A DNA stretch of 51,684 nt from a virus: positions 1-51,684 of IMG/VR virus record IMGVR_UViG_3300042288_001152; one strand, written 5' to 3'. This document shows positions 1 to 45,145 of this stretch, piece by piece; within the stretch, counting starts at the first letter, position 1, and each line of letters begins with the position of its first letter. Made by a program: the position numbers and the translations under genes. Under the pieces are notes generated by a model. That model was given only the letters and a program-made list of their open reading frames with translations. It was not told where the DNA came from and did not search any database.

Positions 1-1278
1 TGGGTAATTGTATTGTCCTACTGCATAGTCGTATGCTGAGTATATTTTTGATCCAGAATTATCTGCATAAAAATCTTTATTTGAATACATATCAATTTCT
101 AACTTATCAAAATAAGGTAGGTCAAAGGATGAATCTTGTGTAGTCATTGTTACCCTTATATCTAGTATTGGGCTTCCTGAGTTCTGGTTTTTGTTGTAGT
201 ATGGCATCGGAGAATTATTTTTGCAAACTACCCATGGCTGATTTGGGATTTGTATTTCAACCAAAATATTATCTACATCCTGCCCATAGCAAATTCTAGA
301 AGAAACAATATCTTCTGGATTTGATATATACAGTCTTTCTTGAAAAGAAAATGTTTTTGTTTCTACGGCATCTGTTTCTTCAAACTCAATTCTGTTATAT
401 TCTGAGTTATAATATGCATCTCCAGAAGCAAGTTCTTCTAGTGCTTTTATTCCAGGATACCTATATGAAATGTCTGGTCTTACTGATGCCGAGTTTAATG
501 AAAAAAGAATTCCATTATTTGAATAAACAATTTGTGAGTACTTTGTCTCTTTGTATCCCGACAGATAATGATTTAATATTTTTGCTTCTTCTAGCTCATA
601 GGCATATATTGCTGCTGAATCAACAATAAATTTTTTGCCTGAGTTGGCTGGTCCCAAGGATAGGTTTAAGCTTGAATTAGTAAATTTAAAGCTATCTACA
701 ACTGGACTTTCAGAAACAATTTTTCCATCGACATAAAGTGAAATTGTATCTTTAGAAAACATACCTACAACATGCATAGCTTTATTTTTTGTAATCTTAT
801 GCCAAACCATCTGTGTTGGACTACATTTAAAAATAATATTTTCATTTTTATAGAATAGACCAATTGAATTGGCAGCATCTCCTAGAATAATATATTCGGC
901 ATTGTCATCTTTGGCTGGACTAAACCATATTTCAAATGAGAATGGGCCATCTGGATTTCTATTCATACCAAGTCCTAGGGCTTTTAGGCTTATCTGTGCA
1001 TTTTCATTTATCTCTGTTCCTCTTACTCCCGCCCCAATAATAGGAAGAACTTCCATATCTGAGGTATTAATTGCATAGCCCTCCATTGAATTTCCAGTGT
1101 AATCAATTATTGGTAGCCCGCTTACAGCAGCATATGATACGCCATTATCTTTTAAATCTTGATATGTTGAATATAGAGTTGTTAAATTGCTGTATACGCC
1201 AACTTCTCCAGAACGAACTTCATCTAGTAAAAAAAATGCAACTGGATTATCTTTTAAGACAGTATATTTATATGACAT
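1..1278 (-). CDS. Tail fibre/adhesin with LamG-like domain (partial, 3' end missing)
   Basis: The frame is open for 426 codons from an ATG at 1278 to the window edge, so the C-terminus lies outside. About residues 105-215 look like a LamG/concanavalin-type jelly roll: PFSFEIWFSP, then MHVVGMFSKDTISLYVDGK, then a beta-rich stretch. Such domains bind sugars or proteins in phage tail tips. It starts 4 nt after the stop of the collagen-like fibre gene and has no good ribosome site of its own, so translation is probably coupled. A receptor-binding or adhesin role is inferred from the fold and from its place in the tail-fibre block. Confidence 0.75.
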   Translation of the reverse strand, partial: MSYKYTVLKDNPVAFFLLDEVRSGEVGVYSNLTTLYSTYQDLKDNGVSYAAVSGLPIIDYTGNSMEGYAINTSDMEVLPIIGAGVRGTEINENAQISLKALGLGMNRNPDGPFSFEIWFSPAKDDNAEYIILGDAANSIGLFYKNENIIFKCSPTQMVWHKITKNKAMHVVGMFSKDTISLYVDGKIVSESPVVDSFKFTNSSLNLSLGPANSGKKFIVDSAAIYAYELEEAKILNHYLSGYKETKYSQIVYSNNGILFSLNSASVRPDISYRYPGIKALEELASGDAYYNSEYNRIEFEETDAVETKTFSFQERLYISNPEDIVSSRICYGQDVDNILVEIQIPNQPWVVCKNNSPMPYYNKNQNSGSPILDIRVTMTTQDSSFDLPYFDKLEIDMYSNKDFYADNSGSKIYSAYDYAVGQYNYP

Positions 1279-1281
1279 GTC

Positions 1282-2394
1282 TTAAATCTCTTCTAGTGCT
1301 TTAACTCTCGCTGTAAGCTCTTGTACTGCTTTAATTAATGGTGAAATAAATTGATCGTATCTTAATCCTTGCATAGAATCTTCTTCAGACATATCAATCT
1401 TTACCCAGCCAGCAAAGTCTTCTACTCCAGATTCATCTAAAGCTTCTTTTACTTGCTGAGCTATAAGTCCATAATGAGTTCTTGTTCCAGGAAGTGAAAC
1501 TAAGTCTCCATCTACTAATTCTTTCCCGCCCTCAATAAATTTATATTTTACTGGATTTAAATTGTTTATAAAATCTAATCCTAAGTCGGAAGAAAAAATA
1601 TCTGTCTTTAGTCTTTCATCAGAAGTATTTATTGTTCCAGTGTTAGAGTATATAGTTTTCCAAAATCTATTTGATGCTACACCAGCACCCGCATCTATTG
1701 GCTGTCCTATTGAGTACAAGTTATTTGCAAGTGGGTACCAGTTTGAGTTTACTCCATATCCAGACGTTGTTGGAATATTTAATGAAATAGTTGTAGGTAC
1801 TGGATCAATAGTTGCACTAGATCCAGGGATTCCTTGTGGGCCTTGTGCTCCAGTTAATCCAGTTGCGCCTCTAGGTATTGTAAAAGCAAATACAGCATTT
1901 GTAGCGGTTCCAGTATTTGTGACAGAAGCATTTGTTCCAGCTGCACCAGTTGTTGTTGTTCCAATTGCTAGTGTAGTTGGCCCTGGTATTCCTTGTGGTC
2001 CTGCTGGGCCAACAGGCCCTTGTGGTAAAACAAGATTTAAAGTTTGTGAGGGACTTGTGCCAGATATAGTTGCATCTGCATTTACACCAGACTCAACAGT
2101 TCCTATTGAAAGAACATTAGATGGTCCTGGGCCTCCAATTATTCCATCTACACCTCTAGGTAATGTTAAGTTTAATATTGCTGCTTCTGGTGTTCCTACA
2201 TTTACTACTGACGCTGGAGTTGATGCGCTAACAGTTGTTACAGAGCCTATCGTTAAAGTCCCTGAAGGCCCTTGTGGGCCAGGATGAGCATCTAGATAAG
2301 CATCTACATCAGCAGCAAGGTACCCTAGGTCTCTAGGGACGTCTGGCGTGTCTGTATACTGCGGGTACCTAAACCCTTTTCCTGTTGTGCTCAT
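1282..2394 (-). CDS. Collagen-like tail fibre with C-terminal S74 chaperone/autoprotease
   Basis: The protein has 370 residues. Gly-X-Y runs occur at about 39-45, 126-140 and 179-191, and the last two contain Gly-Ile-Pro triplets with Pro in the Y position, the site used by collagen prolyl 4-hydroxylases. The runs are separated by beta-rich repeats. From residue 255 there is a peptidase_S74-type intramolecular chaperone: NTSDERLKTDI (Ser258 and Lys263 are the likely cleavage residues), LIAQQV at 310-315, and a terminal coiled coil at 353-370. In this family the chaperone trimerises the fibre and then cuts itself off. The gene has its own extended -10 promoter six bases before ATG and lies next to five oxygenase genes. 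Confidence 0.88.
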   Translation of the reverse strand: MSTTGKGFRYPQYTDTPDVPRDLGYLAADVDAYLDAHPGPQGPSGTLTIGSVTTVSASTPASVVNVGTPEAAILNLTLPRGVDGIIGGPGPSNVLSIGTVESGVNADATISGTSPSQTLNLVLPQGPVGPAGPQGIPGPTTLAIGTTTTGAAGTNASVTNTGTATNAVFAFTIPRGATGLTGAQGPQGIPGSSATIDPVPTTISLNIPTTSGYGVNSNWYPLANNLYSIGQPIDAGAGVASNRFWKTIYSNTGTINTSDERLKTDIFSSDLGLDFINNLNPVKYKFIEGGKELVDGDLVSLPGTRTHYGLIAQQVKEALDESGVEDFAGWVKIDMSEEDSMQGLRYDQFISPLIKAVQELTARVKALEEI

Positions 2395-2400
2395 TTTTTT

Positions 2401-2409
2401 ATTATACCA
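2401..2409 (-). promoter_or_regulatory. Extended -10 promoter, leaderless, for the collagen-like fibre
   Basis: On the minus strand TGGTATAAT ends six bases before the ATG at 2394. A start point about 6-7 nt after the -10 box falls on the A of ATG, so the mRNA should be leaderless. There is no clear -35. Confidence 0.6.
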
Positions 2410-2414
2410 CCTAT

Positions 2415-3065
2415 TTACTTAATATATACATGTGCTGGGCTCATGTATCTTGTCCCAGAAGTGATTGGCATAACTTCATGTACATAAGGCTGCTGTGATG
2501 GGAACATAATTAGACTTCCAGCCTTTGGCTTAATTGTAATGTTTTGATTAGGAAAATGAATTTCTCCGCCTTCATAATCGTCATTTACATAGGCTACCAA
2601 AGAAAATGCTAGAGTTGAATCTCCATCTTGCCCATCAAAATGTGGGCCCATGGACTGGCCCTGGTTCCACTTTTTAATTGGAACTTGGTTTAGCTCTAAA
2701 TTATATCTATTTTTATCCAGGTTATTTCCAGCTAAATATCTATCGGAACACATTTCAAATGCCATCAAAAAGCTATTTGCTATGTAAAGAGTTTTTTTAT
2801 CAATTGCATCAGACCCAGTAGATTTTTTTAGATTAGATGAAAATATATTTTTTGTAGCCCCGTACACTATAGATTCATTATCGCTTGCTGTCCAGTTTTC
2901 CCACTTTGAAATTCTACTAAATGATGATGGCTCTAAATCTATCTCTTCTATAAAGTCCTTTAAGTACTCTGGAAAACTAAGTGCATTCTCCCAGTACCAT
3001 ATATTTTTTTCTACAATCTGCAAATTAAACATTGTAAATTGCTTGAATATTGGCTCGCCTTCCAT
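2415..3065 (-). CDS. 2OG-Fe(II) oxygenase, prolyl 4-hydroxylase type
   Basis: The protein has 216 residues with the double-stranded beta-helix core in its C-terminal half. The iron ligands are H142-x-D144 (GPHFDG) and H196 (YVHEV), with R206 placed to bind 2-oxoglutarate. The strand motif NDDYEGGEIHFP (161-172), typical of P4H-like proteins, is present. All catalytic residues are intact, so it should be active. It is the last gene of a five-oxygenase run, 2 nt after the stop of the previous one, and it immediately precedes the collagen-like fibre gene. A substrate among tail-fibre prolines is inference; free amino acids or other proteins remain possible. Confidence 0.9.
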   Translation of the reverse strand: MEGEPIFKQFTMFNLQIVEKNIWYWENALSFPEYLKDFIEEIDLEPSSFSRISKWENWTASDNESIVYGATKNIFSSNLKKSTGSDAIDKKTLYIANSFLMAFEMCSDRYLAGNNLDKNRYNLELNQVPIKKWNQGQSMGPHFDGQDGDSTLAFSLVAYVNDDYEGGEIHFPNQNITIKPKAGSLIMFPSQQPYVHEVMPITSGTRYMSPAHVYIK

Positions 3066-3066
3066 A

Positions 3067-3819
3067 TTAGCCCTCTACTTCTGATGCTGGATAAACTTCT
3101 CCACGTGGAGTTATTCTTAAACCTTTATTTCTATAGTCTTCCCATTCAATGGCTTCATCTGCCTGCATTGCTCTAACTTTAGCAAGCTCTTCAGCCCAGG
3201 CATCTCTAACCTCTTGTGGGTAGTCACTCTCTTCTCTGTCATCCCAGAATGAGCCAAGTGTGTACCTGATTGATTTCTTAACTGTAGTAACTTCGTGCAT
3301 ATTGTGGAATCCTCCAGCAAAAGTGACTAAGGTTCCAGTTTTCGGAACAATTGTAAGCCCATGCTTAAAGTTTAAAACTCCATCTTCAAAGTCATCATTT
3401 AAATAAAGAAATGTTGCATATCTGCTTCTAGTAAATGCTCCTGAAACTCCATCATTAGATGTATTGTCAGAATGCATATTGGCAAAAGCTCCTGGGGCCC
3501 ATCTTTGAGAATGCCAGCTAATTTGTGACATTTGTGCAGGATCTTTTCCAGCCATATCTGCTGTAACGTCAACTACTCTTTGTTTTAGAACTTGAAAAAA
3601 ATCTCCTGGGAGCCCATTAGCAATTGTATCTGGATCATTTAGCTCTGGAGTTCCTGATGAGTATGACTCATAGAATGAAATTGGCATCCATCTTAATTGA
3701 TCTTTTTCCATTTTAATTGCCAAAACTTTAATTATTGCTTGACATTCTTCTGGAGTAAGAAAGTTTTCATACTCAACTATATCCTCTTTATGTCTTTTAA
3801 CAATCATATTTCTTTCCAT
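3067..3819 (-). CDS. 2OG-Fe(II) oxygenase, P4H type
   Basis: The protein has 250 residues. Ligands are H116-S-D118 (NMHSDN) and H175 (NMHEV), with R185 as the likely 2OG-binding residue and the LNDDFEDGVLNF strand at 140-151. After the core there is an extra charged helical tail (200-250) not found in its neighbours. It starts at an ATG overlapping the stop of the upstream oxygenase by one base (TAATG), so the two are translationally coupled. ATG at 3807, with a GGAAAG site, is an alternative start. Sequence identity to the neighbouring oxygenases is low outside the core, which suggests separate specificities rather than a recent duplication. Confidence 0.88.
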   Translation of the reverse strand: MERNMIVKRHKEDIVEYENFLTPEECQAIIKVLAIKMEKDQLRWMPISFYESYSSGTPELNDPDTIANGLPGDFFQVLKQRVVDVTADMAGKDPAQMSQISWHSQRWAPGAFANMHSDNTSNDGVSGAFTRSRYATFLYLNDDFEDGVLNFKHGLTIVPKTGTLVTFAGGFHNMHEVTTVKKSIRYTLGSFWDDREESDYPQEVRDAWAEELAKVRAMQADEAIEWEDYRNKGLRITPRGEVYPASEVEG

Positions 3820-4637
3820 TAGTACATTTCTCCATCTTCTGTTGGATTGTAAACCTCATACGGAACCTGAACTCCATCTTTAAAATAAATCATATTTCTT
3901 TTGTTTTCGTAATTAGTTCTTTCCATTTCCATCTTAGCCCATCTAAATGCACCAAATTTTCTTTGGTTGGCAAGCCACTCCTCTGTTCCGTTATGAGGAA
4001 CCATTATAAAGTTTCTTACAAAAAACTTCTCATTGGTGTTAATTGTTTTAACGCCATGGTAGTATGGCTCAGTAGAAGGGAATACTAAAATATCTCCTGC
4101 AGCTGGCTTATGGTTTATAAACTTGCCGTCTACGTAAAATTCTATGTCTCCGCCGTCATAATCATCATTGATATACATAGTACATGTAAGGTAAAATTTG
4201 CTTCCAGGCATATCTTTTTCTGAAGTAATATGGTCTGTATGATACTGCATTGTCATCTTATTTGATAGAGTATCTATTTTAGCGTTATACTTTGAGTAAG
4301 AACATCCACTAAAATGCCAGCCTTCTGGAAGATCAACACCATGTCTTTCTACATAGTCTAAAAGAACTTTATTATAAGCTGCCTCTACTTCTTCAACAAA
4401 CTTTTTCTCTTTGATAAACATTTCGTCAGACAAAACTTCTGTAGAAACTTCTCGCATGTCTTTCTTTTGTGTGTATGTGCCAAAATGTGCCCAAGGATCC
4501 CACGTCTTCAAAAAGTACTTCCCATCTGATGTTTTTTCAGACTCATTCATTGTTTGATACAGTTCTTGTGGATTAGATAGAACGTTTCTGTAGACATCAA
4601 TTTTAGGATGTAGCTCTATGTACTCTAAATTACTCAT
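3819..4637 (-). CDS. 2OG-Fe(II) oxygenase, P4H type
   Basis: With the start at ATG 4637 the protein has 272 residues. This ATG overlaps the upstream stop as ATGA and has AGGAGA 8-13 nt before it; a longer frame from 4673 lacks these. The core has YHTDH (His and Asp ligands), INDDYDGGDIEFY and the distal YYHGV histidine. A lysine (NEKFFVR) lies ten residues after that His, as in collagen P4H where Lys binds 2OG. A C-terminal extension of about 60 residues rich in Lys and Tyr follows. It probably acts on a protein or on a bulky substrate, but the target cannot be read from sequence. Confidence 0.88.
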   Translation of the reverse strand: MSNLEYIELHPKIDVYRNVLSNPQELYQTMNESEKTSDGKYFLKTWDPWAHFGTYTQKKDMREVSTEVLSDEMFIKEKKFVEEVEAAYNKVLLDYVERHGVDLPEGWHFSGCSYSKYNAKIDTLSNKMTMQYHTDHITSEKDMPGSKFYLTCTMYINDDYDGGDIEFYVDGKFINHKPAAGDILVFPSTEPYYHGVKTINTNEKFFVRNFIMVPHNGTEEWLANQRKFGAFRWAKMEMERTNYENKRNMIYFKDGVQVPYEVYNPTEDGEMY

Positions 4638-5308
4638 GGCTGTTTTTCTCCTGTATGTTTTCTTATCGTCCAAAAAAATGGCGAAGTAAATCTATTTCCA
4701 GATTTTACTGGTCTTACCCCGTGAGTATAATTCATATCTCCTGGGAAAAAATATGCTGCTCCAGCAACAGGCTGGAACTCAATTCCATGTTGTGGGAAGT
4801 AAAGCTCTCCACCTTCATAATCATCGTTAAAGTAAAACAGTCCAGCTAAATCGTACCATGGGAAATTATTTGGTCTACCTTTTTCTGGGCCAGAGTGAAA
4901 TTCTTTGTCTGCATGAGGCTCTTGTCTTGCACCTACTGGCCAGCGAACAATAGCTGGACCAGTTTCTTGTGCATCTACGCTAAAAAATTTATCTACTTCT
5001 ATTTTTAATCTTGCTATCATGCTATAGATTAAATCTAATATTTCTGGATCAGAAGCCATAAGAGATGCATAGGTACAAACTCTATCTTCCCATACTGTGT
5101 GATCATATAGCACAAGGCCGTCTGCATCTCTGCGTGTTTCAGTTATATCCCAAATTTTATTATTTTTTGCAAAGTCCATGAGTCTTTTTCTCTCATCTTC
5201 TGATAAGAAATTTCTTAGCTCTACAATGTTGTCTGAAGAGTTGCCAAAAAAACCAGAAGGTGTAATAGATTTAGGTGCATTGTTTTCCCAGTTATCTGCT
5301 AATTTCAT
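4634..5308 (-). CDS. 2OG-Fe(II) oxygenase, P4H type
   Basis: The chosen start is ATG 5308, preceded by GGAGATAAAG; an in-frame ATG at 5320 lacks such a site. This gives 224 residues. Iron ligands are H132-A-D134 (EPHADKE) and H196 (YTHGV), R206 fits the 2OG site, and FNDDYEGGELYFP is present at 160-172. All active-site residues are intact. The start overlaps the DUF6065-like gene by 17 nt and the stop overlaps the next oxygenase by 4 nt, placing it in one polycistronic unit with them. Confidence 0.88.
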   Translation of the reverse strand: MKLADNWENNAPKSITPSGFFGNSSDNIVELRNFLSEDERKRLMDFAKNNKIWDITETRRDADGLVLYDHTVWEDRVCTYASLMASDPEILDLIYSMIARLKIEVDKFFSVDAQETGPAIVRWPVGARQEPHADKEFHSGPEKGRPNNFPWYDLAGLFYFNDDYEGGELYFPQHGIEFQPVAGAAYFFPGDMNYTHGVRPVKSGNRFTSPFFWTIRKHTGEKQP

Positions 5309-6038
5309 CTTTATCTCCATAATTAATTATATCATTGCTTACCTTAAGCCTTATTGATTTTACCTGGTGAGAGCCTATTTTTCTCTTTAAATGATCAACT
5401 GCATCCCTATAAAAATTTGACCAATCTCCAGAATTATTTAACCCTTTTATTGTTTCCCTGTATTCATTTGGGTCAAATACATCATTGTATGGATTTTGGG
5501 GAAATTTTGAAATATCCTGAAAAACCATTTCAGAATTATTTAATGAGCTTAAATCTATTGGTAGTACTGCTACTACTGGGGTTCCTGCCTTAATGGTTAT
5601 TACTTCATTTGGCTTTGTTATCATCCAGGCAATAGGGAGTGGGCCAGTAAAAAAAGAACTACTCATAATTGTAGTAAACGGAACTGCACCATCAATAAAT
5701 AAATTTGGAACTGGCATTGAAAGCAAGCTTAAGTTTGTATCTGTTTTAAAAACTAATCCGCTATTAAAACTAATAGTTCCATTTGCTCTTCCAGAATATG
5801 CATATTTTTGTCCAGACAATATTTTTACGTGATCTGGGCTGCTATCAGAAATTCCATCCCATATAAAAGATATGTCTTCTGGAAAAGATATTCCCCAGCC
5901 AAGCTGGTTACTTAAACTAACTGGAAAGCATTTGTATGCATGAGATTCAAATGTGTTGTCCATCCACTCTCTTTTTGCAGATAATGGCTCAAGTATACCA
6001 AGTCCTTCTTTAGTTATAAATACTTCTATTTTATCCAT
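5292..6038 (-). CDS. DUF6065-like protein of unknown function
   Basis: The protein has 248 residues. The N-terminus has the pattern KREWMDNTFESHAYKCFPVS followed by SNQLGWGI and a DGI segment, which I recognise as DUF6065-like: a Trp-Met-Asp stretch, then Cys-x-Pro, then a Gly-Trp-Gly turn. No catalytic motif is evident to me. It sits between two 2OG oxygenases with overlaps at both ends, so it is probably an accessory or partner of the hydroxylation module. No signal peptide or membrane helix is visible. The family assignment is from memory of its motif and was not verified by search. Confidence 0.6.
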   Translation of the reverse strand: MDKIEVFITKEGLGILEPLSAKREWMDNTFESHAYKCFPVSLSNQLGWGISFPEDISFIWDGISDSSPDHVKILSGQKYAYSGRANGTISFNSGLVFKTDTNLSLLSMPVPNLFIDGAVPFTTIMSSSFFTGPLPIAWMITKPNEVITIKAGTPVVAVLPIDLSSLNNSEMVFQDISKFPQNPYNDVFDPNEYRETIKGLNNSGDWSNFYRDAVDHLKRKIGSHQVKSIRLKVSNDIINYGDKDEISR

Positions 6039-6735
6039 TTTGGTTTTTGCCAGTTGACAAATCTTCTTCTACCCATTTTGACCTCATTTGCATAAACTCT
6101 TGTCTATGAGCATGGTCATTGTAATCTAACATGGTTACTATTGAAAATTTCATTCCAGATTCAACTGGCATGGCTCTATGTGAAAATAAATATGTAGATG
6201 GGAATATATATAGGTCTCCAGCTTTAGGCTTAATGTCTAAGTTTAATTTAGGAAAATATAGGTTCCCTCCCTCATAGTCATCGTTTACATAAGCTACAAG
6301 AGATACTGTGGCGCTGTATGAAAACCCATGATCAGCATGCTCTTGAAAATGCTGTCCTTTGCCATATCTAATACAATTCATTACTTCCCAGTAATTCATT
6401 TTTACGTTATACATATTACAATAATCTTCTACTGCTGGTAACTGATGCTGCTTTAAATCCTGCCATAAATCTGAAACCAATGATTGTGTTTTAGATTGTG
6501 GATTAGATATTTCTCCTACCTTAATATCTTCACAATCTCTGTAAGATGGTCTTTTTTCGCTATAACCAACAAATCCAAATGTCCATTCATATCTAGACTC
6601 TTTGTCTTCAATTGCAGACTGACCTATTACATTTAACCTATTTATTACGTCAATTTCTTTTTTAATTACATCTCTATACACCCAAACTCCTGGGAAAAGC
6701 TGTTCTTTAGAAGAAAAATTATATATGTTATTCAT
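6031..6735 (-). CDS. 2OG-Fe(II) oxygenase, P4H type (first gene of the oxygenase operon)
   Basis: The protein has 234 residues. Ligands are H133-A-D135 (QEHADHG) and H186 (FSHRAMPV), with K196 in the 2OG position and YVNDDYEGGNLYFP at 149-162. ATG 6735 lies seven bases after a TATACT box paired with TTGACT, so the operon message seems to begin at this start codon. It leads a unit of oxygenase, DUF6065-like, and three more oxygenases running to 3067, then a fourth at 2415. The gene directly upstream encodes the Fn3 protein with FFAPPG repeats, making that proline-rich tail a candidate substrate (inference). Confidence 0.88.
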   Translation of the reverse strand: MNNIYNFSSKEQLFPGVWVYRDVIKKEIDVINRLNVIGQSAIEDKESRYEWTFGFVGYSEKRPSYRDCEDIKVGEISNPQSKTQSLVSDLWQDLKQHQLPAVEDYCNMYNVKMNYWEVMNCIRYGKGQHFQEHADHGFSYSATVSLVAYVNDDYEGGNLYFPKLNLDIKPKAGDLYIFPSTYLFSHRAMPVESGMKFSIVTMLDYNDHAHRQEFMQMRSKWVEEDLSTGKNQNG

Positions 6736-6742
6736 ACTATGA

Positions 6743-6772
6743 AGTATAGCATTTTTTAATTAGTAAAGTCAA
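6743..6772 (-). promoter_or_regulatory. Sigma70-type promoter of the oxygenase operon, leaderless
   Basis: On the minus strand TTGACT (6767-6772), an 18-bp spacer and TATACT (6743-6748) end seven bases before the ATG at 6735. It lies immediately downstream of a terminator, so the operon is insulated from the fibre gene upstream. Confidence 0.7.
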
Positions 6773-6773
6773 T

Positions 6774-6803
6774 AAAGGACGGGAGATTTCTCTCCCGTCC
6801 TTT
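6774..6803 (-). terminator. Rho-independent terminator after the Fn3/FFAPPG gene
   Basis: A perfect 13-bp stem (AAAGGACGGGAGA and its complement) with a 4-base loop lies 15 nt past the stop of the Fn3 gene. Short U runs are contributed by the stem ends, so it may act in both directions. Confidence 0.75.
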
Positions 6804-6817
6804 ATTTGTGTTTTATA

Positions 6818-7651
6818 TTAAACTGCAAAGACTCCTGGTGCTCCGAATCCTGGCGGTGAGAAGAATCCTGGCGGTGCGAAGAATGCTGGCGGTGCGAAGA
6901 ATCCTGGCGGTGCGAAGAATGCTGGCGGTGCGAAGAATCCTGGCGGTGCGAAGAATCCTGGCGGTGCGAAGAATCCTGGCGGTGCGAAGAAACTTGGCGG
7001 TGCGAAGAATGCTGGAGGGAAGAATGGTGGTGCAAAGAATGACGGTGCTAATGTCGTAACAGTATTTGTGTTATTTGATGCTGCTGATCTTCCATTAGCA
7101 TTATCTGCATAAACATTGTAGTACTGAGATGTACTAGCTGTATCTGATATTGATATAGATAAGTTAGTTGTATTTCCAGTTGTTCCATCATTACCTTGAA
7201 CAAAGTAGTTGGTTATTGGCTTTCCACCTGTTGCAGGTGCTCCCCAGCTAACCGTATTTGCATTAACTCCAGCAGTTGCAGATGCGCTTGTTGGTGCAGC
7301 TGGCTTTGTTGTTGCTGTTGCTGATGCTGAATTAGAATCTGCTGATGTTCCATAAAGGTCAACTGCTTTTACTGTATAAGAGTAAGAAGTTCCACCAACT
7401 AGTCCAGTATTAGAGAAGGTAGTAGTAGGAGCACTTACTGTTCCTACCTCTACTCCACTTCTAAATATTTTGTATTGAGTTGGTGCATTTCCTGTTGCTG
7501 GTGCTGTCCATGACAGATTAATCATTCCATCGTTAAAGTTTCGTTGGTTATTAACGCCGTTCAAATGATCTGCTGCGGTTAGCCCAGTTGGTGCATTTGG
7601 GCCAATGAAGTTGTCTTGAGCTGATGCTCTTCTGCCTATATTTTTTGACAT
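6818..7651 (-). CDS. Fn3-domain tail protein with C-terminal FFAPPG repeat
   Basis: The protein has 277 residues. Two fibronectin type III-like domains occupy about 20-116 (LSWTAPATG, YTVKAVDLYG) and 118-201 (VSWGAPATGG, YNVYADNANG). Residues 203-277 are a low-complexity run of FFAPP units with G, A or S between, closing with GFGAPGVFAV. The same closing peptide ends the 799-residue protein at 12841. Fn3 repeats in phage structural proteins usually bind surface carbohydrate. The Pro-Pro run would demand EF-P during translation and offers many prolines to the P4H genes just downstream. It is followed by a strong terminator. No signal peptide is present. Confidence 0.8.
   Translation of the reverse strand: MSKNIGRRASAQDNFIGPNAPTGLTAADHLNGVNNQRNFNDGMINLSWTAPATGNAPTQYKIFRSGVEVGTVSAPTTTFSNTGLVGGTSYSYTVKAVDLYGTSADSNSASATATTKPAAPTSASATAGVNANTVSWGAPATGGKPITNYFVQGNDGTTGNTTNLSISISDTASTSQYYNVYADNANGRSAASNNTNTVTTLAPSFFAPPFFPPAFFAPPSFFAPPGFFAPPGFFAPPGFFAPPAFFAPPGFFAPPAFFAPPGFFSPPGFGAPGVFAV
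6838..7042. repeat. Tandem 18-bp repeat encoding FFAPP(G/A/S) hexapeptides
   Basis: About ten near-identical 18-bp units built on GGCGGTGCGAAGAATCCT run through the 3' end of the Fn3 gene. In the coding frame each unit encodes Phe-Phe-Ala-Pro-Pro-X. Units differ at few bases, so the array probably expands and contracts by recombination. Confidence 0.85.
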
Positions 7652-7671: not shown

Positions 7672-9963
7672 TTATGCTTTCAAGTCTCCAGCAAGTAACC
7701 ATGTATCTGTTGCTACCTTGGTTATTGTTGCTGATGAATATAATGCTCTTAGCTTTAGTCCTGGAGTTCTCAATATTGTAACTCCAGATGCTTCTGCAAA
7801 TACTGCGTCTGCTCCAGCTGACTGGTAGAAGCTTATTGAAGTTCCTATTGGATAAGCTGTAGTTGCATTTGTAGGAACTGTAATTGTGTGTGCTCCAGAA
7901 ACTGGAATTAACTGATCTCTTAGCGCTAATCCACCTGTTGATAGATTGTATGCTCCAGCAATTGCTGTTCCAATTACAGTCCGTGAAGGAACGCCTTCCT
8001 TTGTCTGAGTTCCATCTGTAAACGCTACACCTGCTGCTGCAACCGTTACTGTTCCAGTAAATGTTGGTGAAGCAATTGGTGCTTTAGATGCAAGACTGGT
8101 AGTGACTGTTGTTGCAAAGTTTGCATCGTCACCTAGTGCTGCAGCAAGCTCATCAAGGGTGTTAAGGGCTGCTGGGGCTGCTGCAATTACTGCATTTACC
8201 TGAGCTGTTGCATCTGCAATTGCTTCTGACTTAGCAGTTGCTATTGCTGAAGCCTGTGCTGTGGATACTGGCTTTGATGCATCTGATGTATTATCAACAT
8301 TTGCAAGGCCTACTGAAGACTTTGTAAGTGCTGCTACTGCATTTGCAACCTTTGTGTCTGCTGCTAATCCTGCTGCTGTAATTGCATCTGCTTCTGCAGT
8401 GTCTGCATAAGACTTTGTTGCAAGAAGTGCTGTATCTGCAATTCCATGAACATCAGTTGTATCTGATGCGTGATTTGAAAGAGCTGTTGCAGCTGATCCA
8501 AACTGTGTTTGAATTGAAGATGTAACTCCATTTAGGTAAGTTATTTCTGTTGAATCAACATTACCTATGGTTGTTGACTCTGGCAAAACAACTAGACCTG
8601 CAAATGTTGGTCCACTTAGTGGTGCTTTGGCATCTAGTGCGTCTCCTAGTCCAGCAATCTTGGACTGTGCAATTTCTGCACCGTCAACAATTTTTGCATT
8701 TGTAATAGACTGAGCAGCAATCTTAGATTCTGTAACTGCATTGTTTGCAATTTTTGTTTCTGTTATGGCACCGTCTGCGATTTTACCATTAACTACTGCA
8801 TTGTCTTGAATTTTTTCGCTAGTTACTGAATCAACAGCTAACTTTACATCAGTTACAGAGCCAGTTGCAATTTTGTCAGTTGAGATAGAACTATCTGCAA
8901 CTTTATCGTTTGTTACTGAGTTGGTTGCCAATTTTTGTTCTGTTACAGAGCTATTTGCAATTTTTTGTGTTACCACAGCGTTTGCTGCAAGCTTTTCTTC
9001 TGTTACTCCTTGACTTTCAATTTTATCAGTTGTAACTGCACCGTTTGCAATTGAAGCAGATATAATTGATGAGACTGGAACATCAAGTGTTCCAGTAAAT
9101 TCTGCGTTATTTATTGTTGCGCTAGATGTTGCTTCCAATCTTCCAAGGGCTAGTGTGTCTAAGGATCCTTGAGCAAAATTAACTACAGTGGTTGGAGTAT
9201 CTGTAACTCCTTTGAAAAGCTTCCACTTGTCTGCTGATGCATCACGAACTAGTCCAGTGTGGTTTGCTACTCCAGTGTTATGGTTAGCAACAAATCCTAA
9301 GTCTAAAATGTTTGTTGTATTGTCTTTTCCAATTGATAGAAGTGCATCTTCAAAAGCAACATTTTGGGTATCAATAGTTGTGGTTGTTCCGCTTACAATT
9401 AAGCTACCATTAATAACTACGTTTTGAGCTGTTAGATCTCCCTCTGTTGAAATATGTGTTGTTAGGCCTGTTAGTTTTAGTTGAGCTTCTGGAACTTTAA
9501 CGTTTCCATCAAGTGAAGCAACTCCGTTTGCTATGCCTCTGTCACCTGTCTCTAGGTATCCTGACAATGAGCTATTTACTCCATTTACAGCAGCATCTGT
9601 GTAACCTTCTGCTGCTGAAATAGCTGCTTCTCTAGCTGCTGATGCTTCTGATGTTGCAAACGCTTTTGTAGAAATAACATTTGTATCTACAGTTATTGTT
9701 ATTGTGTTTGATCCATCATTATAGGTCTTTGTAAGACCTGCTCCCATTGAAAGAGCCTGATCTATAGCATCTTGTGAAATTTCACCAATTGCTGCTGTGT
9801 CGGCTGCTGCATATGAAAGAGCGGTCCATGTAGATGAACCATTACCGAATTTAAATTTATTAGTGTTTGTTTCAACACCCATTTCACCTGCAGCTAATAC
9901 TGGATTTGCTGCGGTCCATTCTGAAGATAAACCTCTACGTACTTGAATTCTTACTGTTGACAT
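7672..9963 (-). CDS. Long tail fibre with Mtd-type N-terminal domain
   Basis: The protein has 763 residues. The first 55 (VRIQVRRGLSSEWTAAN, GEMGVETNTNKFKFGNG) match the N-terminal module of the major tropism determinant family, used for virion attachment. A shaft follows; between about 300 and 440 it consists of roughly 11-residue repeats of the type SVTNDKVADS / ITETKIANN, typical of a beta-helix. It continues with a LNTLDELAAALGDDANF module and a C-terminal beta domain. It has an AAAGGGGTGGC ribosome site and an extended -10 promoter at 9994. No diversity-generating retroelement is visible nearby, so the Mtd resemblance concerns attachment only. Confidence 0.85.
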   Translation of the reverse strand: MSTVRIQVRRGLSSEWTAANPVLAAGEMGVETNTNKFKFGNGSSTWTALSYAAADTAAIGEISQDAIDQALSMGAGLTKTYNDGSNTITITVDTNVISTKAFATSEASAAREAAISAAEGYTDAAVNGVNSSLSGYLETGDRGIANGVASLDGNVKVPEAQLKLTGLTTHISTEGDLTAQNVVINGSLIVSGTTTTIDTQNVAFEDALLSIGKDNTTNILDLGFVANHNTGVANHTGLVRDASADKWKLFKGVTDTPTTVVNFAQGSLDTLALGRLEATSSATINNAEFTGTLDVPVSSIISASIANGAVTTDKIESQGVTEEKLAANAVVTQKIANSSVTEQKLATNSVTNDKVADSSISTDKIATGSVTDVKLAVDSVTSEKIQDNAVVNGKIADGAITETKIANNAVTESKIAAQSITNAKIVDGAEIAQSKIAGLGDALDAKAPLSGPTFAGLVVLPESTTIGNVDSTEITYLNGVTSSIQTQFGSAATALSNHASDTTDVHGIADTALLATKSYADTAEADAITAAGLAADTKVANAVAALTKSSVGLANVDNTSDASKPVSTAQASAIATAKSEAIADATAQVNAVIAAAPAALNTLDELAAALGDDANFATTVTTSLASKAPIASPTFTGTVTVAAAGVAFTDGTQTKEGVPSRTVIGTAIAGAYNLSTGGLALRDQLIPVSGAHTITVPTNATTAYPIGTSISFYQSAGADAVFAEASGVTILRTPGLKLRALYSSATITKVATDTWLLAGDLKA

Positions 9964-12840: not shown

Positions 12841-15240
12841 TTATACAGCAAATACTCCTGGTGCTCCGAATGCTGGCGGTGCGAAGAACTCTGGTGGCGC
12901 AAAGACTGGGTCTGGGTCTGGTTCTGGGAATGCTGGTGGTGTAAAGACTGGTTCTGGATCTGGATCTGGAAATGCTGGTGGTGAAAAGAATCCTGGTGGC
13001 GCAAAGAATGATGGTGGTGCAAATACAGCTGGTGCACATCCTGCTTGGGCTGCGGCTGCTAAAGCGGCAGAAGATGTTGATCGGTATCTCAATACTTCTC
13101 GTGCACTACTTGGACCTGAAATTACATCTGTTGGAATTGATGAAGCAGTATAAGGACCACTAACAGATGGACTTGAGCCATAATTTCCAGAGTTATTGTT
13201 ACACAAAGAATATCCTATATAATAAGTTACTGTTACTGGTGGTGTACATTCCTGAGTTTGTGTTTCAGTATATGCAGTGCATGATCCAGCATGATAGTTT
13301 GTTCTTGTTTTAGTTTGTGTTCCTTCAGAAGAACATGTGCTCCATGCGCTCCATGCACTTGGTGTTGGACATGAAATAAAATCACCGCAGCATTGCTGTC
13401 CAACGCTTATTGCATAAGTTGTAGAGTTACCAAGTAACTGTCTTCCAAGCTCAGCACAGGTATATGCTGCTGCATTTGTTATAGTTCCTGGACATGCTGG
13501 TTTTTCTTGTGGTGGTGGGAAATCTGGGGATGCTTGATACGTAAACTTATTTACTGTAATTGTAGGTATTGGAGATGAATTTACAATAGTTCCAGCAGCG
13601 GGGGATTGTGAAGAAACTAGTCCTTCTTTTGTATAATCAGTGGTGCCAACTGCTGTTCCTGCTGCAATGTTGTAACTTGATGTGCTAGAAGGATTATATG
13701 TTCCAACTAGGTTTGGGATTGTATATGTTGTGGGTACGCAAACTGGGGTTCTAGATACTCCTCCAGCAACCTGATTATTTATTCCTGGCTCATCAGCGTT
13801 GCAAGCTGCATTTAATCCTGTAAGAGCTGCGCTGCTATTTGCATAAGTTCCAGTTACTCCAGCCCCATTGCCGCAACAGGCCCAATATTGAACTGGTGAA
13901 GTAGGCTCTTCTGCTTCTTTTGTTGTAGATGCAACTGAGTTACTGCTATATGTTTTTGAGGTAGTATTTAAATCGGTAGTCAATACATAAACAGAAGATG
14001 TTATTGACTTGTTGTCATATTGAGTTGTGTCGCCTAGGCTTAATGTACTTCCAATTCCAAATGGTATGTTGACCCCATCCGCATACCATTCATGAATATA
14101 AGAATAAATTGAAGAAGAATTACTCCATGTTCCATTTGTTGATGTAAATGATCTTCCAGTTCCAGAAACTGTTGGTGCAACTTGATTTACTGGTAAAGGA
14201 ACTGATGGATATACTATAGGTAATCCTGGGAAAGAAGACCATGATGTTTCAGTAAATCTTGGAGCGGTTCCAGTTACAGTAATTGTGTATGATCCATATG
14301 TTGTTCCGCCAACCCCTATTCTTTCAATCCAATATGAGGTTTGAGAAGGACCTCCAGAAAAATATGAACTAGACTCCATATTACCGTTGTTATATACAAT
14401 CCATTCTGTTGGCTGTATTAAATTTAAAGACCAAGACAGGGTTCCTCCATTTGAGCTTGAAGACATAGTCGTTGTAACTCCAGGCTTATTTGGCTTTACA
14501 TCAGAAACTGATGCATTAGCACCAATACCTTGAACTGTAGTTCCGCTAATATTAGATGTATTTAGTGGTCTTACTAATAACAAAAGTCCGCCGCTTCCAT
14601 TTCCAGTATCTATCTCATATGTATTTACATCTCCAGTAAGCTGTATTTCTCCAGAAGCGGCACCTGAATATTGTATATAAAAATCATTTGCTCCAATTGG
14701 CTTTGTCCAATCTACTTTTATTACTCCATTTGATACTACAGATGCAGATACAACAGAAAGTTTTTGTGGACCTATTAATGGGCTCGGTAAAGTATAGACA
14801 TCTGGATCATTATCTCCAGCAGCATTTGTAGCTGTTACCTTACACCTTACAACATACCCAACATACTTTAAAGTTCTAGTAGAATTCCATTCGTCTTCAT
14901 CTAATTGAAGTGTATTTGATGTCTTGCCTGTAATGTTTGACCAATTATATGAAGACCCAGTCCATGCTGCTTTTTGCCATTGATATTTAAATGAAGTTGG
15001 AGAATTTTCCCAGACACCGTTTGAAACAGAAACAGTTTCTTGTGCTGCATACCAGAAAGCTCCTCCTTGCAATGAAAGTATAGGAAGCTCTGTGTTTTTT
15101 GGTTTTAAGTCAAGTAGGGATTTCCATTCAGAACCATCCCATATATATGCCGCTTTAGATTCATTCCATGTGCTTCCATCATGAATCTGTACTTTTTTTA
15201 AAGGATTCCAACTGGAACCGTCAAAAATATTTAGCGGCAT
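12841..15240 (-). CDS. Large modular adhesin: Ig/Fn3-like, PASTA-like and thrombospondin-like modules, FAPP tail
   Basis: The protein has 799 residues. The N-terminus carries three DGSxW motifs (7-40), a common tail attachment signature. Ig- or Fn3-like beta domains follow (70-440). A PASTA-like segment (506-563, TIPNLVGTYN to PTITVNK) comes before a Cys-rich region with a thrombospondin type 1-like motif WSAWSTC (630-636) and further paired cysteines (649-665). The tail (739-799) alternates FAPP and PDPDPEP units and ends GAPGVFAV, as in the Fn3 protein at 6818. PASTA domains bind peptidoglycan or muropeptides, so a cell-wall contact role is plausible. AAGGAG precedes ATG. Confidence 0.78.
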   Translation of the reverse strand: MPLNIFDGSSWNPLKKVQIHDGSTWNESKAAYIWDGSEWKSLLDLKPKNTELPILSLQGGAFWYAAQETVSVSNGVWENSPTSFKYQWQKAAWTGSSYNWSNITGKTSNTLQLDEDEWNSTRTLKYVGYVVRCKVTATNAAGDNDPDVYTLPSPLIGPQKLSVVSASVVSNGVIKVDWTKPIGANDFYIQYSGAASGEIQLTGDVNTYEIDTGNGSGGLLLLVRPLNTSNISGTTVQGIGANASVSDVKPNKPGVTTTMSSSSNGGTLSWSLNLIQPTEWIVYNNGNMESSSYFSGGPSQTSYWIERIGVGGTTYGSYTITVTGTAPRFTETSWSSFPGLPIVYPSVPLPVNQVAPTVSGTGRSFTSTNGTWSNSSSIYSYIHEWYADGVNIPFGIGSTLSLGDTTQYDNKSITSSVYVLTTDLNTTSKTYSSNSVASTTKEAEEPTSPVQYWACCGNGAGVTGTYANSSAALTGLNAACNADEPGINNQVAGGVSRTPVCVPTTYTIPNLVGTYNPSSTSSYNIAAGTAVGTTDYTKEGLVSSQSPAAGTIVNSSPIPTITVNKFTYQASPDFPPPQEKPACPGTITNAAAYTCAELGRQLLGNSTTYAISVGQQCCGDFISCPTPSAWSAWSTCSSEGTQTKTRTNYHAGSCTAYTETQTQECTPPVTVTYYIGYSLCNNNSGNYGSSPSVSGPYTASSIPTDVISGPSSAREVLRYRSTSSAALAAAAQAGCAPAVFAPPSFFAPPGFFSPPAFPDPDPEPVFTPPAFPEPDPDPVFAPPEFFAPPAFGAPGVFAV

Positions 15241-19497: not shown

Positions 19498-21432
19498 CTA
19501 GGCAGATATATCTACAAGTTCGCAATTTCCGTCTGAACTGCAAGCCAAGGTGGCGTTTGTTGAAGTTCCATCTTCTGTTTCATAAAAAGAGAGATCTTCC
19601 CACCTAATATTCTTTGGCATTTTAGATAAAAGCTCTTCATATTCTTCTTTTGAAATTTCTTGATAAGGTGCTTGCTTATATGTATGCTCTGAGTGTGGCA
19701 GGAAAGAAATTCCAGATACTTCATCAAAATTCTTGTATACCCAAGCTCCTACTTCCATCCACTCTTCTTCTTTTACTGAAACAGTAATAGAAGGCTTATG
19801 CTCACACCAAGCTCTTTGATAAACAAGCCAAATATTTAAGTGGTCAATTGCAGTTAAATCATTTCTAACAATTGCACCTTCTGGTGCTTTTACTGGGAAC
19901 GAAAATACATATGTTTCATTAGGCTTCATTACATCATCTTCTACTGGTATTCCAACTTCTTTTAGGAAAACAGAAATTGGATCTCCTTTTGAACCACGGA
20001 CTGTGCGAACATAATATGGTGAATGCCATGGATGCATTCCTGAAGATACCCCGACCAATTGAGATACTGTTCCAGAAGGTTTTACGCATGTAATAGCTGC
20101 AGACTCAGGAATTCCAATTTTTTCAGCCTCTTCTTTATTAGTTTCACGAGCATACTCTCTTAAAGACATCAAGTAAGCTTCTAAAGCAACTATATCCTTC
20201 TTGCCAGACATAAACTTGTGTCCAAATTGTCCTGTCAAAGAAACACCAAGAAGTCTCTCTTCTTCTGTGTTATCTTTCCATATTTTTCTTAGGTACTTAA
20301 AATCTGTAAGAGTTGACTGCCAGGTTCCAAGTATTGTTGCAAGCCTTACTTTATTTGCAATATCTTCTTTGGTGTCTTTCTCACGCAATACTACTTCTGA
20401 AAGATTGCAAAACTGATACGGACGAAGGATAATTTCAGAGCAAGGGTTTGTACCATAATGAATATCTGGATCTCTACGACCAAACTTCGCTGCTTGTGCT
20501 TGAGCTGCGGCTACGTTGTAAATACCACGTTCACCAGACTTTGAATCATAAAGAGATTTCCACTCTGCAATAAACTGTTCCATTTCTGGCTTTCTTGAAT
20601 ATGCAACTGAGTTATTAGATAATGCTCGTTGTGTATTACCTTCCCACCAATTACCAGCCTTTGCTTGAGCCATTTCAATATCATTAATGTTTGACAGAGA
20701 AATCATTGCAGATCTTCTTACTCCACCAACAACTACCACTTCACCAATCTTACACATAATGTCATGACATTCAATTGGTTTAAGATTTCTACCTGCTGCA
20801 TTTTTAAACTTAGCAATAGTAAAGTCAAAAAGATTTACTAGGGGCTGAGGACCAGAAGATCTACCACCCATTGTTTTTAATCTTGCACCAGCAGGTCTAA
20901 CTTTAGTTACATCAATTGCTGGAATATGTCCTGTCCAAAGAAGTGCTAATAGTTCACGATATGCTTTTGCCCATCCTTGCTTTGAATCTTCGACAACAAT
21001 AATAGTATCCGACTTCTCTAGTTTTTCTGGGACGGCAGGAAGCTTATTAATATACTTGTACTCAACTGAGAATCCTACACCAGTTCCGCACATAAGTACA
21101 TACATTGTTTCATCAAATGATCTAGGTGAATCAACTGGCAAGAAAGCACAATTGTATCCTGCTACATTATCTCTTTCAAGTGCTACGCCAGAAGTCATTA
21201 CAGATCTCATTGATGGCATAACATTTCGTTCAAATACAAACTCTTTTAATTCCGCAACAAGCTTCTCATTTGGAATGTAATTATGGTTTTCTTTTAAGTG
21301 ATTGGTCATGAAAGAAAAATATCTATCTACCGTTTCTCCCCATGTTTCTCTACGTCCTTCTGCTTCTACCCATTTAGCATATCTTGATAGTGCAATAAAG
21401 TTTTCATAAGGATTTTCAATAGTATTTTTCAT
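19498..21432 (-). CDS. rtpR: Adenosylcobalamin-dependent (class II) ribonucleoside-triphosphate reductase
   Basis: The protein has 644 residues, somewhat shorter than the monomeric RTPR of lactobacilli. Recognisable elements are YNCAFLPVDS (C95, reducible pair), RPAGARLKTMGGRSSGPQPL (179-198), TNPCSEI (C331 thiyl site, E333), CNLSEVV (C342) and a C-terminal CSSDGNCELVD with two cysteines (631, 637) that reload electrons. It reduces NTPs to dNTPs and supplies phage DNA synthesis without oxygen or an R2 subunit, but needs host B12. GAAAAGGCG lies upstream of the ATG. It is divergent from the endolysin gene. Confidence 0.93.
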   Translation of the reverse strand: MKNTIENPYENFIALSRYAKWVEAEGRRETWGETVDRYFSFMTNHLKENHNYIPNEKLVAELKEFVFERNVMPSMRSVMTSGVALERDNVAGYNCAFLPVDSPRSFDETMYVLMCGTGVGFSVEYKYINKLPAVPEKLEKSDTIIVVEDSKQGWAKAYRELLALLWTGHIPAIDVTKVRPAGARLKTMGGRSSGPQPLVNLFDFTIAKFKNAAGRNLKPIECHDIMCKIGEVVVVGGVRRSAMISLSNINDIEMAQAKAGNWWEGNTQRALSNNSVAYSRKPEMEQFIAEWKSLYDSKSGERGIYNVAAAQAQAAKFGRRDPDIHYGTNPCSEIILRPYQFCNLSEVVLREKDTKEDIANKVRLATILGTWQSTLTDFKYLRKIWKDNTEEERLLGVSLTGQFGHKFMSGKKDIVALEAYLMSLREYARETNKEEAEKIGIPESAAITCVKPSGTVSQLVGVSSGMHPWHSPYYVRTVRGSKGDPISVFLKEVGIPVEDDVMKPNETYVFSFPVKAPEGAIVRNDLTAIDHLNIWLVYQRAWCEHKPSITVSVKEEEWMEVGAWVYKNFDEVSGISFLPHSEHTYKQAPYQEISKEEYEELLSKMPKNIRWEDLSFYETEDGTSTNATLACSSDGNCELVDISA

Positions 21433-23088: not shown

Positions 23089-23241
23089 ATGACAAGAGAC
23101 TACTTTGCAAAATATATGCTTAGCCCTCAATTTCAGCAGGACGAAAATAATAAAGAGGAGCATAAAAAAGTTTGTCAGAAATGTCGAGATGGAATTATTA
23201 AATTTTACTTTAAAAAGATTATTGGGAGGAATAAAAAATAA
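23089..23241 (+). CDS. Small basic protein with CxxC
   Basis: The start is ATG 23089 just after the -10 box. The protein has 50 residues with one CQKC pair and a Lys/Arg-rich C-terminus. Its stop overlaps the next start as TAATG, so it is coupled to the oxygenase gene. A longer TTG frame upstream would run through the promoter hairpin and is unlikely. Confidence 0.55.
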   Translation: MTRDYFAKYMLSPQFQQDENNKEEHKKVCQKCRDGIIKFYFKKIIGRNKK

Positions 23242-24101
23242 TGTTTTATGATAGAGAAGATTGTATCAAAGTTTCTTTTTTCCCCGATGATTATGGTACA
23301 CAGAGTGGAGTATTTTTATTTAAAGGGTTTTACACTGACGAAGAATGTAAAGTTGTAGAAGATGCTTTAAAAAACTACGACAAGGGAATGAAGCATAAAG
23401 ACACCCTTATAAGCTGGTATTCAGAGAAGGTTAGCCCAGTAATACCAGGACTTTTTGATCTTTGGGAAAAAGCAAGCGAGATGCTTTACCCAGACTATGT
23501 AATACATCCTCAAGCAAACGTATTGATAATAACCCCAGAGATGAATGAAGGAATGTTTACGCATTCAGATTCTCCAGGTAAGGGAGAATGTCATAGACTT
23601 TCTCAGGTAGATGTATGGAAGACCTGTTGCGACTTAGACTTTGGCCTAGTTGCTTATTTTGGCGACTTTGAAGGCGGAGAAATATTTTATGTAAACATAG
23701 ATAAAGACGGAAACAGGAACCCAGCCGTAGATACGCAAAATAGATTATCTATAAAACCAGAAAGAGGCGACTTAGTTATACACGGAGCCTTTGATCCGCA
23801 TTCACATGGAGTTATGCCAGTTTCAAAAGGAAAGCGATATGCTTTTTCAAACTTTGTATTAAAGGCAGAAGATAACCCTGGTACATTTCATAATTATAAG
23901 AGCCCAGAGTATTATAGTGAGCTCGTAGATAGAGAGTCTCCAGACTTTAATGAGTTTATAAAAAAGTGGCTTAAGCCGCTGAAAGAAAATCCACAATTTA
24001 CTCCAGAAAGAATTAAAGAGTATCAAGCTTCAGGGCTAGAGGGAACAGAATTATCAGATAAGTTTATGGGTGAGTTCAAAGAGCACAAAGGAGAAAACTA
24101 A
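23241..24101 (+). CDS. 2OG-Fe(II) oxygenase, P4H type
   Basis: The protein has 286 residues. Ligands are H108-S-D110 (FTHSDSPG) and H189 (HSHGVMPV), with R199 in the 2OG site and GDFEGGEIFY at 141-150. An insert of about 15 residues (151-166) separates two core strands, and an 80-residue helical C-terminal extension follows the core. It is intact and divergent from the left-end cluster. It forms an operon with a 50-residue basic protein and a degenerate oxygenase paralogue. Confidence 0.87.
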   Translation: MFYDREDCIKVSFFPDDYGTQSGVFLFKGFYTDEECKVVEDALKNYDKGMKHKDTLISWYSEKVSPVIPGLFDLWEKASEMLYPDYVIHPQANVLIITPEMNEGMFTHSDSPGKGECHRLSQVDVWKTCCDLDFGLVAYFGDFEGGEIFYVNIDKDGNRNPAVDTQNRLSIKPERGDLVIHGAFDPHSHGVMPVSKGKRYAFSNFVLKAEDNPGTFHNYKSPEYYSELVDRESPDFNEFIKKWLKPLKENPQFTPERIKEYQASGLEGTELSDKFMGEFKEHKGEN

Positions 24102-24647
24102 ATGCTTAAAGAAATAAATACTGGTATATATTCCTGGAAAAATTATGTTCCTAAAAGCACACTAGACTACTATCAAAGCCTTTTAGACAATTTATCTGAA
24201 GACAGCTGGTATATCCACTGTAATGTCGATGCTGGCGATATATCTGGAAAATTTTTAGATGGCAAGCTAAGTTTTGATATTGTAGAAAGGCCTTTTCTAA
24301 ATGAGCTTATAGATCTTTTTGGCCCAGATAAAATGTGGATATACTGCCATGGTAATTTTTTAAGGCTAAAGACTGGAGAAGGCTCAGGTAGAGAAGATAG
24401 TTATACAAAAATACTTAGTGGCTATGCTCCGTTTATTCAAAAAAAGATTGCAATATACATGAGTGAATTTTCTGGCGGTGAGATAGTTTTCCCTGAAATA
24501 AATTTTGAATATAAGCCAGAGGCTGGAGAGCTTCTTGTGTTTGACATAGATAGTAAATTAGATCATTATACTAAACCTGTTACATCTGGAACTAGATACG
24601 TCTATATGGACTATGTAATTCAGCATCCAGGTTATTATATGCCTTAA
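24102..24647 (+). CDS. Oxygenase-fold protein lacking the first iron ligand (putative pseudoenzyme)
   Basis: The protein has 181 residues. The 2OG-oxygenase core is clear: MSEFSGGEIVFP (120-131), EYKPEAGELLVF, then H155 in LDHYTKPV and R165 in GTRYVYMDYV. At the place of the H-x-D motif it has R97-E98-D99 (GREDSY), so one iron-binding histidine is missing. It directly follows an intact oxygenase (next base after its stop). It may be a regulatory or substrate-binding partner of that enzyme, or decaying. The open frame and conserved core argue against simple decay. Confidence 0.75.
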   Translation: MLKEINTGIYSWKNYVPKSTLDYYQSLLDNLSEDSWYIHCNVDAGDISGKFLDGKLSFDIVERPFLNELIDLFGPDKMWIYCHGNFLRLKTGEGSGREDSYTKILSGYAPFIQKKIAIYMSEFSGGEIVFPEINFEYKPEAGELLVFDIDSKLDHYTKPVTSGTRYVYMDYVIQHPGYYMP

Positions 24648-25702: not shown

Positions 25703-26248
25703 TTATTCAAATACCTTTCCTACTGCAGCATATTGTTTTGTAAGAAAATCTTTTAGGATATTATTTTCCATAAAGATAATAGAAACCTTATTTTCTAAAT
25801 TTTGTACAGAATGATCCTGATGTTTTTTGAACCATACAACGTCTCCAGCATTTAATATAAATTTTGTTTCAGAACCTTTTGTTGGATTGTCATACATAGT
25901 CCACTCTGATTTTCCCATGCATTGCCAATGTATTACATCAGCTTCATCTGAATGCCTAGTTGTTGGGCTACCACCACCAGCTCCTTCTAGAAGCAAAAGT
26001 GTAGTCTGTACATTATAGACACTAGAGCACTCTTTATAAAAATTATCTACAGTCTTATCTTCAAAAAAATATTGAGGAGCTATTTTCATAGACCCTAAAG
26101 GCTTTCCGTCCTCACTATTTGTTACATCTTCTTGTGTTTTATATGCTTTATAAAATAAAGAAATATCTGGTGGAGTTGCATAATTTCTAAAAATTATATG
26201 CTTATTTAACTCAAGTTCAGCAAGTGCTTCTTTAGATTTAATATTCAT
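25703..26248 (-). CDS. JmjC/cupin-like Fe(II) oxygenase
   Basis: The protein has 181 residues. TTRHSDEADVIHWQCMG places H99 and D101 as ligands, with H107 nearby. LNAGDVVWFKKHQDHSVQNL supplies the distal H146 in the cupin strand pair. This is the JmjC/cupin_8 arrangement, unlike the NDDYEGG-type oxygenases elsewhere. A close functional relative in the window is at 44063. Substrate is unknown; family members hydroxylate proteins, tRNA or small molecules. The stop lies one base before the next start. Confidence 0.72.
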   Translation of the reverse strand: MNIKSKEALAELELNKHIIFRNYATPPDISLFYKAYKTQEDVTNSEDGKPLGSMKIAPQYFFEDKTVDNFYKECSSVYNVQTTLLLLEGAGGGSPTTRHSDEADVIHWQCMGKSEWTMYDNPTKGSETKFILNAGDVVWFKKHQDHSVQNLENKVSIIFMENNILKDFLTKQYAAVGKVFE

Positions 26249-43042: not shown

Positions 43043-43048
43043 AGTACT

Positions 43049-43054
43049 ATTATA
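43049..43054 (-). promoter_or_regulatory. -10 box, leaderless
   Basis: TATAAT on the minus strand ends six bases before ATG 43042. There is no clear -35. Confidence 0.45.
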
Positions 43055-43056
43055 CA

Positions 43057-45075: not shown

Positions 45076-45116
45076 GTTAGTCCTTTCAAGTAAAAGCAGG
45101 ATCGCTTTATATAACA

Positions 45117-45145
45117 ATAATACTATTATAGGGTGTATTTGTCAA
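45117..45145 (-). promoter_or_regulatory. Sigma70 promoter of the peroxidase gene
   Basis: TTGACA (45140-45145), a 17-bp spacer and TATTAT (45117-45122) on the minus strand, with a 41-nt leader containing GAAAGG. Confidence 0.7.

Follow-up and report, generated by a model that had tools for sequence, protein, structure and literature searches.

The window analysed here, a 51.7-kb stretch of viral DNA comprising positions 1–51,684 of the IMG/VR record IMGVR_UViG_3300042288_001152, is probably a fragment of a virus genome; a nucleotide search of INPHARED returned no near relative. Its tail region lies entirely on the minus strand, and the genes at 1282–7651 read as one operon. The order of transcription in this region is Mtd_N fibre, fn3/FFAPPx protein, oxyA, DUF6065, oxyB, oxyC, oxyD, oxyE, S74 fibre, and LamG-like protein (Table 1). 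Pfam matches and coordinates agree with an earlier note on this DNA, which had described five oxygenase genes and a DUF6065-like gene directly upstream of a fibre with Gly-X-Y runs and Gly-Ile-Pro; the runs comprise three to six triplets, and Gly-Ile-Pro occurs twice. The Phe-Pro repeat protein encoded at 6818–7651, which did not figure in that account, is located 82 bp upstream of oxyA, the first of the oxygenase genes.

Table 1. Features of the tail operon and other coordinates referred to in the text, numbered along the window.
Feature	Position	Strand	Evidence
LamG-like protein	1-1278	-	
Tail-fibre protein, 370 aa, four short Gly-X-Y runs and Peptidase_S74 chaperone C-terminus	1282..2394	-	PF13884 1e-14
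oxyE, 2OG-Fe(II) oxygenase; H142 D144 H196 R206	2415..3065	-	PF13640 1e-12
oxyD, 2OG-Fe(II) oxygenase; H116 D118 H175 R185	3067..3819	-	PF13640
oxyC, 2OG-Fe(II) oxygenase; H133 D135 H194 K204 (numbered from ATG at 4637)	3819..4637	-	PF13640
oxyB, 2OG-Fe(II) oxygenase; H136 D138 H200 R210	4634..5320	-	PF13640
DUF6065 protein	5292..6038	-	PF19541 5e-28, 98.5 bits
oxyA, 2OG-Fe(II) oxygenase; H133 D135 H186 K196	6031..6735	-	PF13640 7e-14; AlphaFold2 model
Hairpin, 16-bp stem, between repeat gene and oxyA	6771..6806	-	-27.2 kcal/mol, z = -8.7
FFAPPx repeat region, limits approximate	6845..7040	-	
fn3-domain tail protein, 277 aa, C-terminal FFAPPx repeats	6818..7651	-	Pfam fn3 7e-10; PHROG tail families
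Mtd_N fibre	7672-9963	-	
Second structural-looking protein, 799 aa, FAPP/FFAPP-type C-terminal tail	12841..15240	-	ends in GAPGVFAV
PF13640 match	23241-24101	+	
PF13640 match, just under cut-off, without HxD	24102-24647	+	
PF13640 match	41405-41938	-	
PF13640 match	42404-43057	-	
PF13640 match	46165-46722	-	

The products of oxyA to oxyE all score above the curated cut-off of PF13640 (27 bits). Their iron-binding HxD...H and R/K residues, which had previously been read as intact, are maintained throughout the family: the triad is invariant among the 44–57 distinct homologs compared per oxygenase, and either R or K is always present, the two being interchangeable. The start of oxyC may alternatively be a TTG at 4673 instead of the ATG at 4637. 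The paralogs have diverged considerably (21–30% identity to oxyE). A profile built from the ten oxygenases of the window has its best match in the prolyl 4-hydroxylase (P4H) of Bacillus anthracis (7e-14), followed by prolyl 3-hydroxylase and PKHD hydroxylases. The AlphaFold2 model of oxyA, the only oxygenase that was modelled (pLDDT 91), shows a double-stranded beta-helix fold of the P4H/PHD type, with matches to PHD2, vCPH, Cr-P4H, and bacterial P4Hs at E-values down to 6e-11; the best 50 fold matches listed are peptidyl-prolyl hydroxylases, among them PHD2, viral vCPH, and an algal P4H with a Ser-Pro peptide. Sequence and model support a resemblance to peptidyl (prolyl) hydroxylases and predict peptidyl hydroxylation, with a substrate that the 2OG fold itself does not fix. 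Since the location of the genes in the tail-fibre operon is fixed, a virion protein is the likely substrate. Five further PF13640 matches lie outside the tail operon (Table 1) and had escaped the earlier description.

The gene between oxyA and oxyB encodes a true DUF6065 protein (PF19541, 98.5 bits versus a cut-off of 26.6). Its classification as an oxygenase was dropped; the model (pLDDT 89) weakly resembles the dUTPase fold (TMq 0.40), and sequence comparison provided no convincing solved relative. Searches of a library of open-access papers found neither a mention of DUF6065 nor a description of the cassette.

More than 100 IMG/VR loci show the block with its gene order conserved. Among the relatives gathered by searches with DUF6065 (80 virus loci) and oxyE (71 virus loci), nearly all loci that offer sufficient room show the succession repeat protein, oxyA, DUF6065, oxyB, oxyC, oxyD, and oxyE, with most genes at 50–100% identity, and the comparison indicates that the block is a real operon and not a chance neighbourhood. 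A host-derived cassette was considered but not seen: a search for FFAPP in bacterial genomes yielded 24 scattered matches, none with an adjoining oxygenase in the stretch covered.

The protein preceding the oxygenases matches the repeat pattern eight times, compared with no match in shuffled sequences, and its C-terminal end after the FFAPPx repeats reads GFGAPGVFAV. In relatives, the repeat takes the form FFPP, HFPP, or FPYFPP. At the DNA level, the arrays draw on different synonymous codons, with 4.5 spellings per array on average, a pattern to be expected where it is the protein sequence that counts. The same final GAPGVFAV follows the FAPP-type repeats of a different protein, encoded at 12841–15240, which is a further candidate substrate; in many relatives, the last residues of the two repeat proteins match within one phage but differ between phages. 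Some relatives (L165:4048-5253, L151:8640-9968, and others) possess an additional C-terminal domain after the Phe-Pro repeat, with weak matches to Intein_splicing and Hint_2; such a domain is absent from the repeat protein of the window.

The gap between the repeat gene and oxyA contains a hairpin (Table 1), and similar hairpins are present in the corresponding gaps of 26 of 58 relatives. The scan scored it as terminator-like on the plus strand; the T tract is weaker on the minus strand. Such a structure would suit an abundant structural protein whose expression is uncoupled from that of its enzymes. A promoter-like site is located just past the hairpin on the minus strand, although sites of this kind occur at chance level overall.

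The connection between PF13640 oxygenases and Phe-Pro repeats extends well beyond the window. PF13640 is present in all 43 virus contigs selected solely by the FFAPPxFFAPP DNA pattern and in 38 of the 42 selected by triple FFPP. In 50 contigs taken as a neutral sample on the basis of an unrelated fibre motif, every cluster of at least four PF13640 matches is accompanied by Phe-Pro repeats (26/26), which occur in only some of the contigs with one or two matches (5/11) and in none of those without PF13640 (0/13); for any PF13640 match, this amounts to 31/37 versus 0/13 (Fisher 8e-8, calculated for sequences that are not independent). The contigs are partial, and they are related, so that the counts are not independent. 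Once the clusters had been dereplicated by their first oxygenase (80% identity), a Phe-Pro gene is situated no more than 2 kb upstream in 32 of the 33 clusters that have upstream sequence, a set partly selected for FFAPP, with 7/8 in the neutral group alone and 4/4 in the group selected by oxygenase or DUF6065 alone. The one remaining entry is the latter half of a cluster split in two, and a Phe-Pro gene precedes the former half. Queries with an oxygenase or with DUF6065, which involve no repeat criterion, recovered an upstream Phe-Pro gene in 35/35 and 49/49 cases before removal of redundancy. Conversely, 15 of the 42 FFPP genes with enough flanking sequence lack an oxygenase at a distance of up to 1.6 kb.

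The earlier note had proposed that the phage hydroxylates the prolines of its own collagen-like fibre, which would mean that the oxygenases act on Y-position prolines of the protein encoded at 1282–2394 and stabilise its triple helix. The Gly-X-Y runs of this fibre exceed chance, as the longest run of six triplets was reached by only 19 of 20,000 residue shuffles, and the protein has no match to the Pfam collagen model at 0.01. Its proximity to the oxygenases is conserved in the clade of the window, where a collagen-like gene follows 43 of 44 and 50 of 52 clusters, its two GIP triplets offer prolines in the appropriate position, and one of the nearest enzymes of solved structure is a bacterial P4H for which hydroxylation of proline in synthetic peptides has been reported (PMC8968730). 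However, proline is sparse at position Y: the 613 triplets of 50 distinct fibres contain 265 prolines at X versus 55 at Y, and eight of the 50 fibres, most of which adjoin intact oxygenases, have no Y-position proline at all, so that the conserved Y-position proline expected of a collagen P4H substrate is lacking. Moreover, a collagen-like gene follows merely 10 of the 25 non-redundant clusters with downstream sequence, and one clade (L085-L088) has kept the oxygenase cluster without this S74/Gly-X-Y fibre. A sample of virus contigs chosen for collagen-like repeats did not bear out a general pairing with PF13640: among 41 such contigs with runs of at least six triplets confirmed by translation (73 loci; a sample not matched by habitat), PF13640 is present in two and missing from 39. 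Phage collagen-like fibres thus usually occur without a PF13640 oxygenase, unlike in the window. Also in the prophage-type collagen-like tail fibres of E. coli O157, the fibre has Gly-X-Y runs in which proline is not preferred at Y, and a collagen domain is known to be stable in the absence of hydroxyproline, with a melting temperature of 42 °C (PMC3368898). From these comparisons, the collagen-like fibre is probably not the main target of the oxygenases, and we consider stabilisation of its triple helix a quite improbable reason for the presence of the cassette; the fibre is a possible secondary substrate. What persists of the original proposal are the prolyl-hydroxylase-like enzymes and a likely substrate in the virion.

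Instead, the cassette may modify the tail proteins of the phage with the Phe-Pro repeat tail of the 6818–7651-type protein as the predicted main substrate, a reading to which we give an even chance. The late tail operon would yield at least one structural-looking protein with an fn3 domain and a long C-terminal Phe-Pro tail (FFAPPx or FFPP/HFPP), and directly behind it five or more P4H-like Fe(II)/2-oxoglutarate oxygenases with intact iron- and 2-oxoglutarate-binding residues, together with DUF6065. The oxygenases may then hydroxylate many sites of the Phe-Pro repeats ahead of assembly, most likely at prolines and possibly at other residues, which seems about as probable as its opposite. Hydroxylation could stiffen or solubilise the repeats, render them adhesive, or create sites for further linkage, and, with less confidence than for the hydroxylation itself, the modified tail might serve in the virion as an extended, stiff, or adhesive component, or undergo further linkage. 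The presence of several paralogs might reflect different repeat positions or several repeat-bearing proteins. We tentatively suggest that such Phe-Pro tails, with many hydroxylations introduced by the enzymes of an operon devoted to this task, would represent a new phage protein material that serves as an extended or adhesive attachment structure, and that the Hint-like domain of some relatives may cleave or attach the tail; this appears somewhat less probable than the modification of the repeats as such. Association and adjacency argue for an enzyme–substrate relation but fall short of proving it, and joint carriage as one late module could explain both.

Known enzymes provide partial precedents. 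The P4H fold of the oxyA model is shared with vCPH of PBCV-1 (PDB 5c5t), which is virus-encoded, and with algal P4H-1 (2jig, 3gze), whose structure contains a (Ser-Pro)5 peptide, a repeat other than collagen. By contrast, both are single enzymes from a eukaryotic context that lack a multi-oxygenase operon behind a tail gene, and their identity to oxyA is only about 15–17%. The P4H of B. anthracis (3itq, 5hv0), the top sequence match of the oxygenase profile, is encoded by a bacterial gene, and the literature ties it to collagen-like spore proteins or EF-Tu rather than to phage tails.

2OG oxygenases also modify residues other than proline. The operon might serve tail-protein hydroxylation in general, with targets in the two types of fibre and in further virion proteins, each paralog acting on its own target and not necessarily on proline. 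The divergence of the paralogs would fit such a division of labour, as would the conserved order between structural genes and the occurrence of several candidate targets in one operon, but the consistent link is to one repeat class, and we regard the broader assignment as unlikely. An auxiliary role in metabolism or stress, in which the enzymes would act in the 2-oxoglutarate and nitrogen metabolism of the host or in nucleic acid repair and would occupy their late-operon position by chance, has its model in the cyanophages. Their 2OG-Fe(II) oxygenases (PHROG 61 and others), which are the phage relatives known best, belong to the same superfamily as those of the cassette, occur in several copies per phage, and have been discussed in the context of nitrogen metabolism (PMC3037559, PMC9602691) or, in the case of an oxygenase beside UvsX/UvsY, of repair (PMC2984593). 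The five PF13640 matches elsewhere in the window would be compatible with such a role. However, the cyanophage homologs are only about 27–31% identical over part of the protein, and those examined are located among replication genes (near uvsX/gp41) or singly, never in such a cluster. The fixed place directly behind the Phe-Pro gene in divergent phages and a fold that is nearest to peptidyl-prolyl hydroxylases also argue against a metabolic role, which we consider improbable to nearly the same degree as stabilisation of the collagen-like fibre. Because the four cyanophage records checked contain similar oxygenases but no Phe-Pro repeats, modification of Phe-Pro tails is proposed for the cassette and not for phage oxygenases in general.

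Self-hydroxylation of structural proteins by phages is not generally assumed, and bacteria and viruses have been stated to lack the prolyl hydroxylases required for collagen (PMC3368898). The pairing of a repeat protein with P4H-like enzymes in a widespread operon would bring a eukaryote-like modification into phage assembly. It would also assign a testable role to some of the phage 2OG oxygenases hitherto called metabolic genes and offer a source of new repeat-specific hydroxylases.

Several other genes of the window merit mention. Two cupin/JmjC-like proteins are encoded on the minus strand at 25703–26248 and 44063–44608; the latter matches JmjC_2, whereas the former was judged from HxD motifs alone. 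A ribonucleotide reductase-like protein of 644 aa (19498–21432, minus strand) shows merely partial matches to the class II RNR domain. Finally, a glutathione peroxidase (44617–45117), a protein of the carboxymuconolactone decarboxylase family (47186–47698), and an AhpC/TSA protein (47698–48234) form a small peroxide-defence set.
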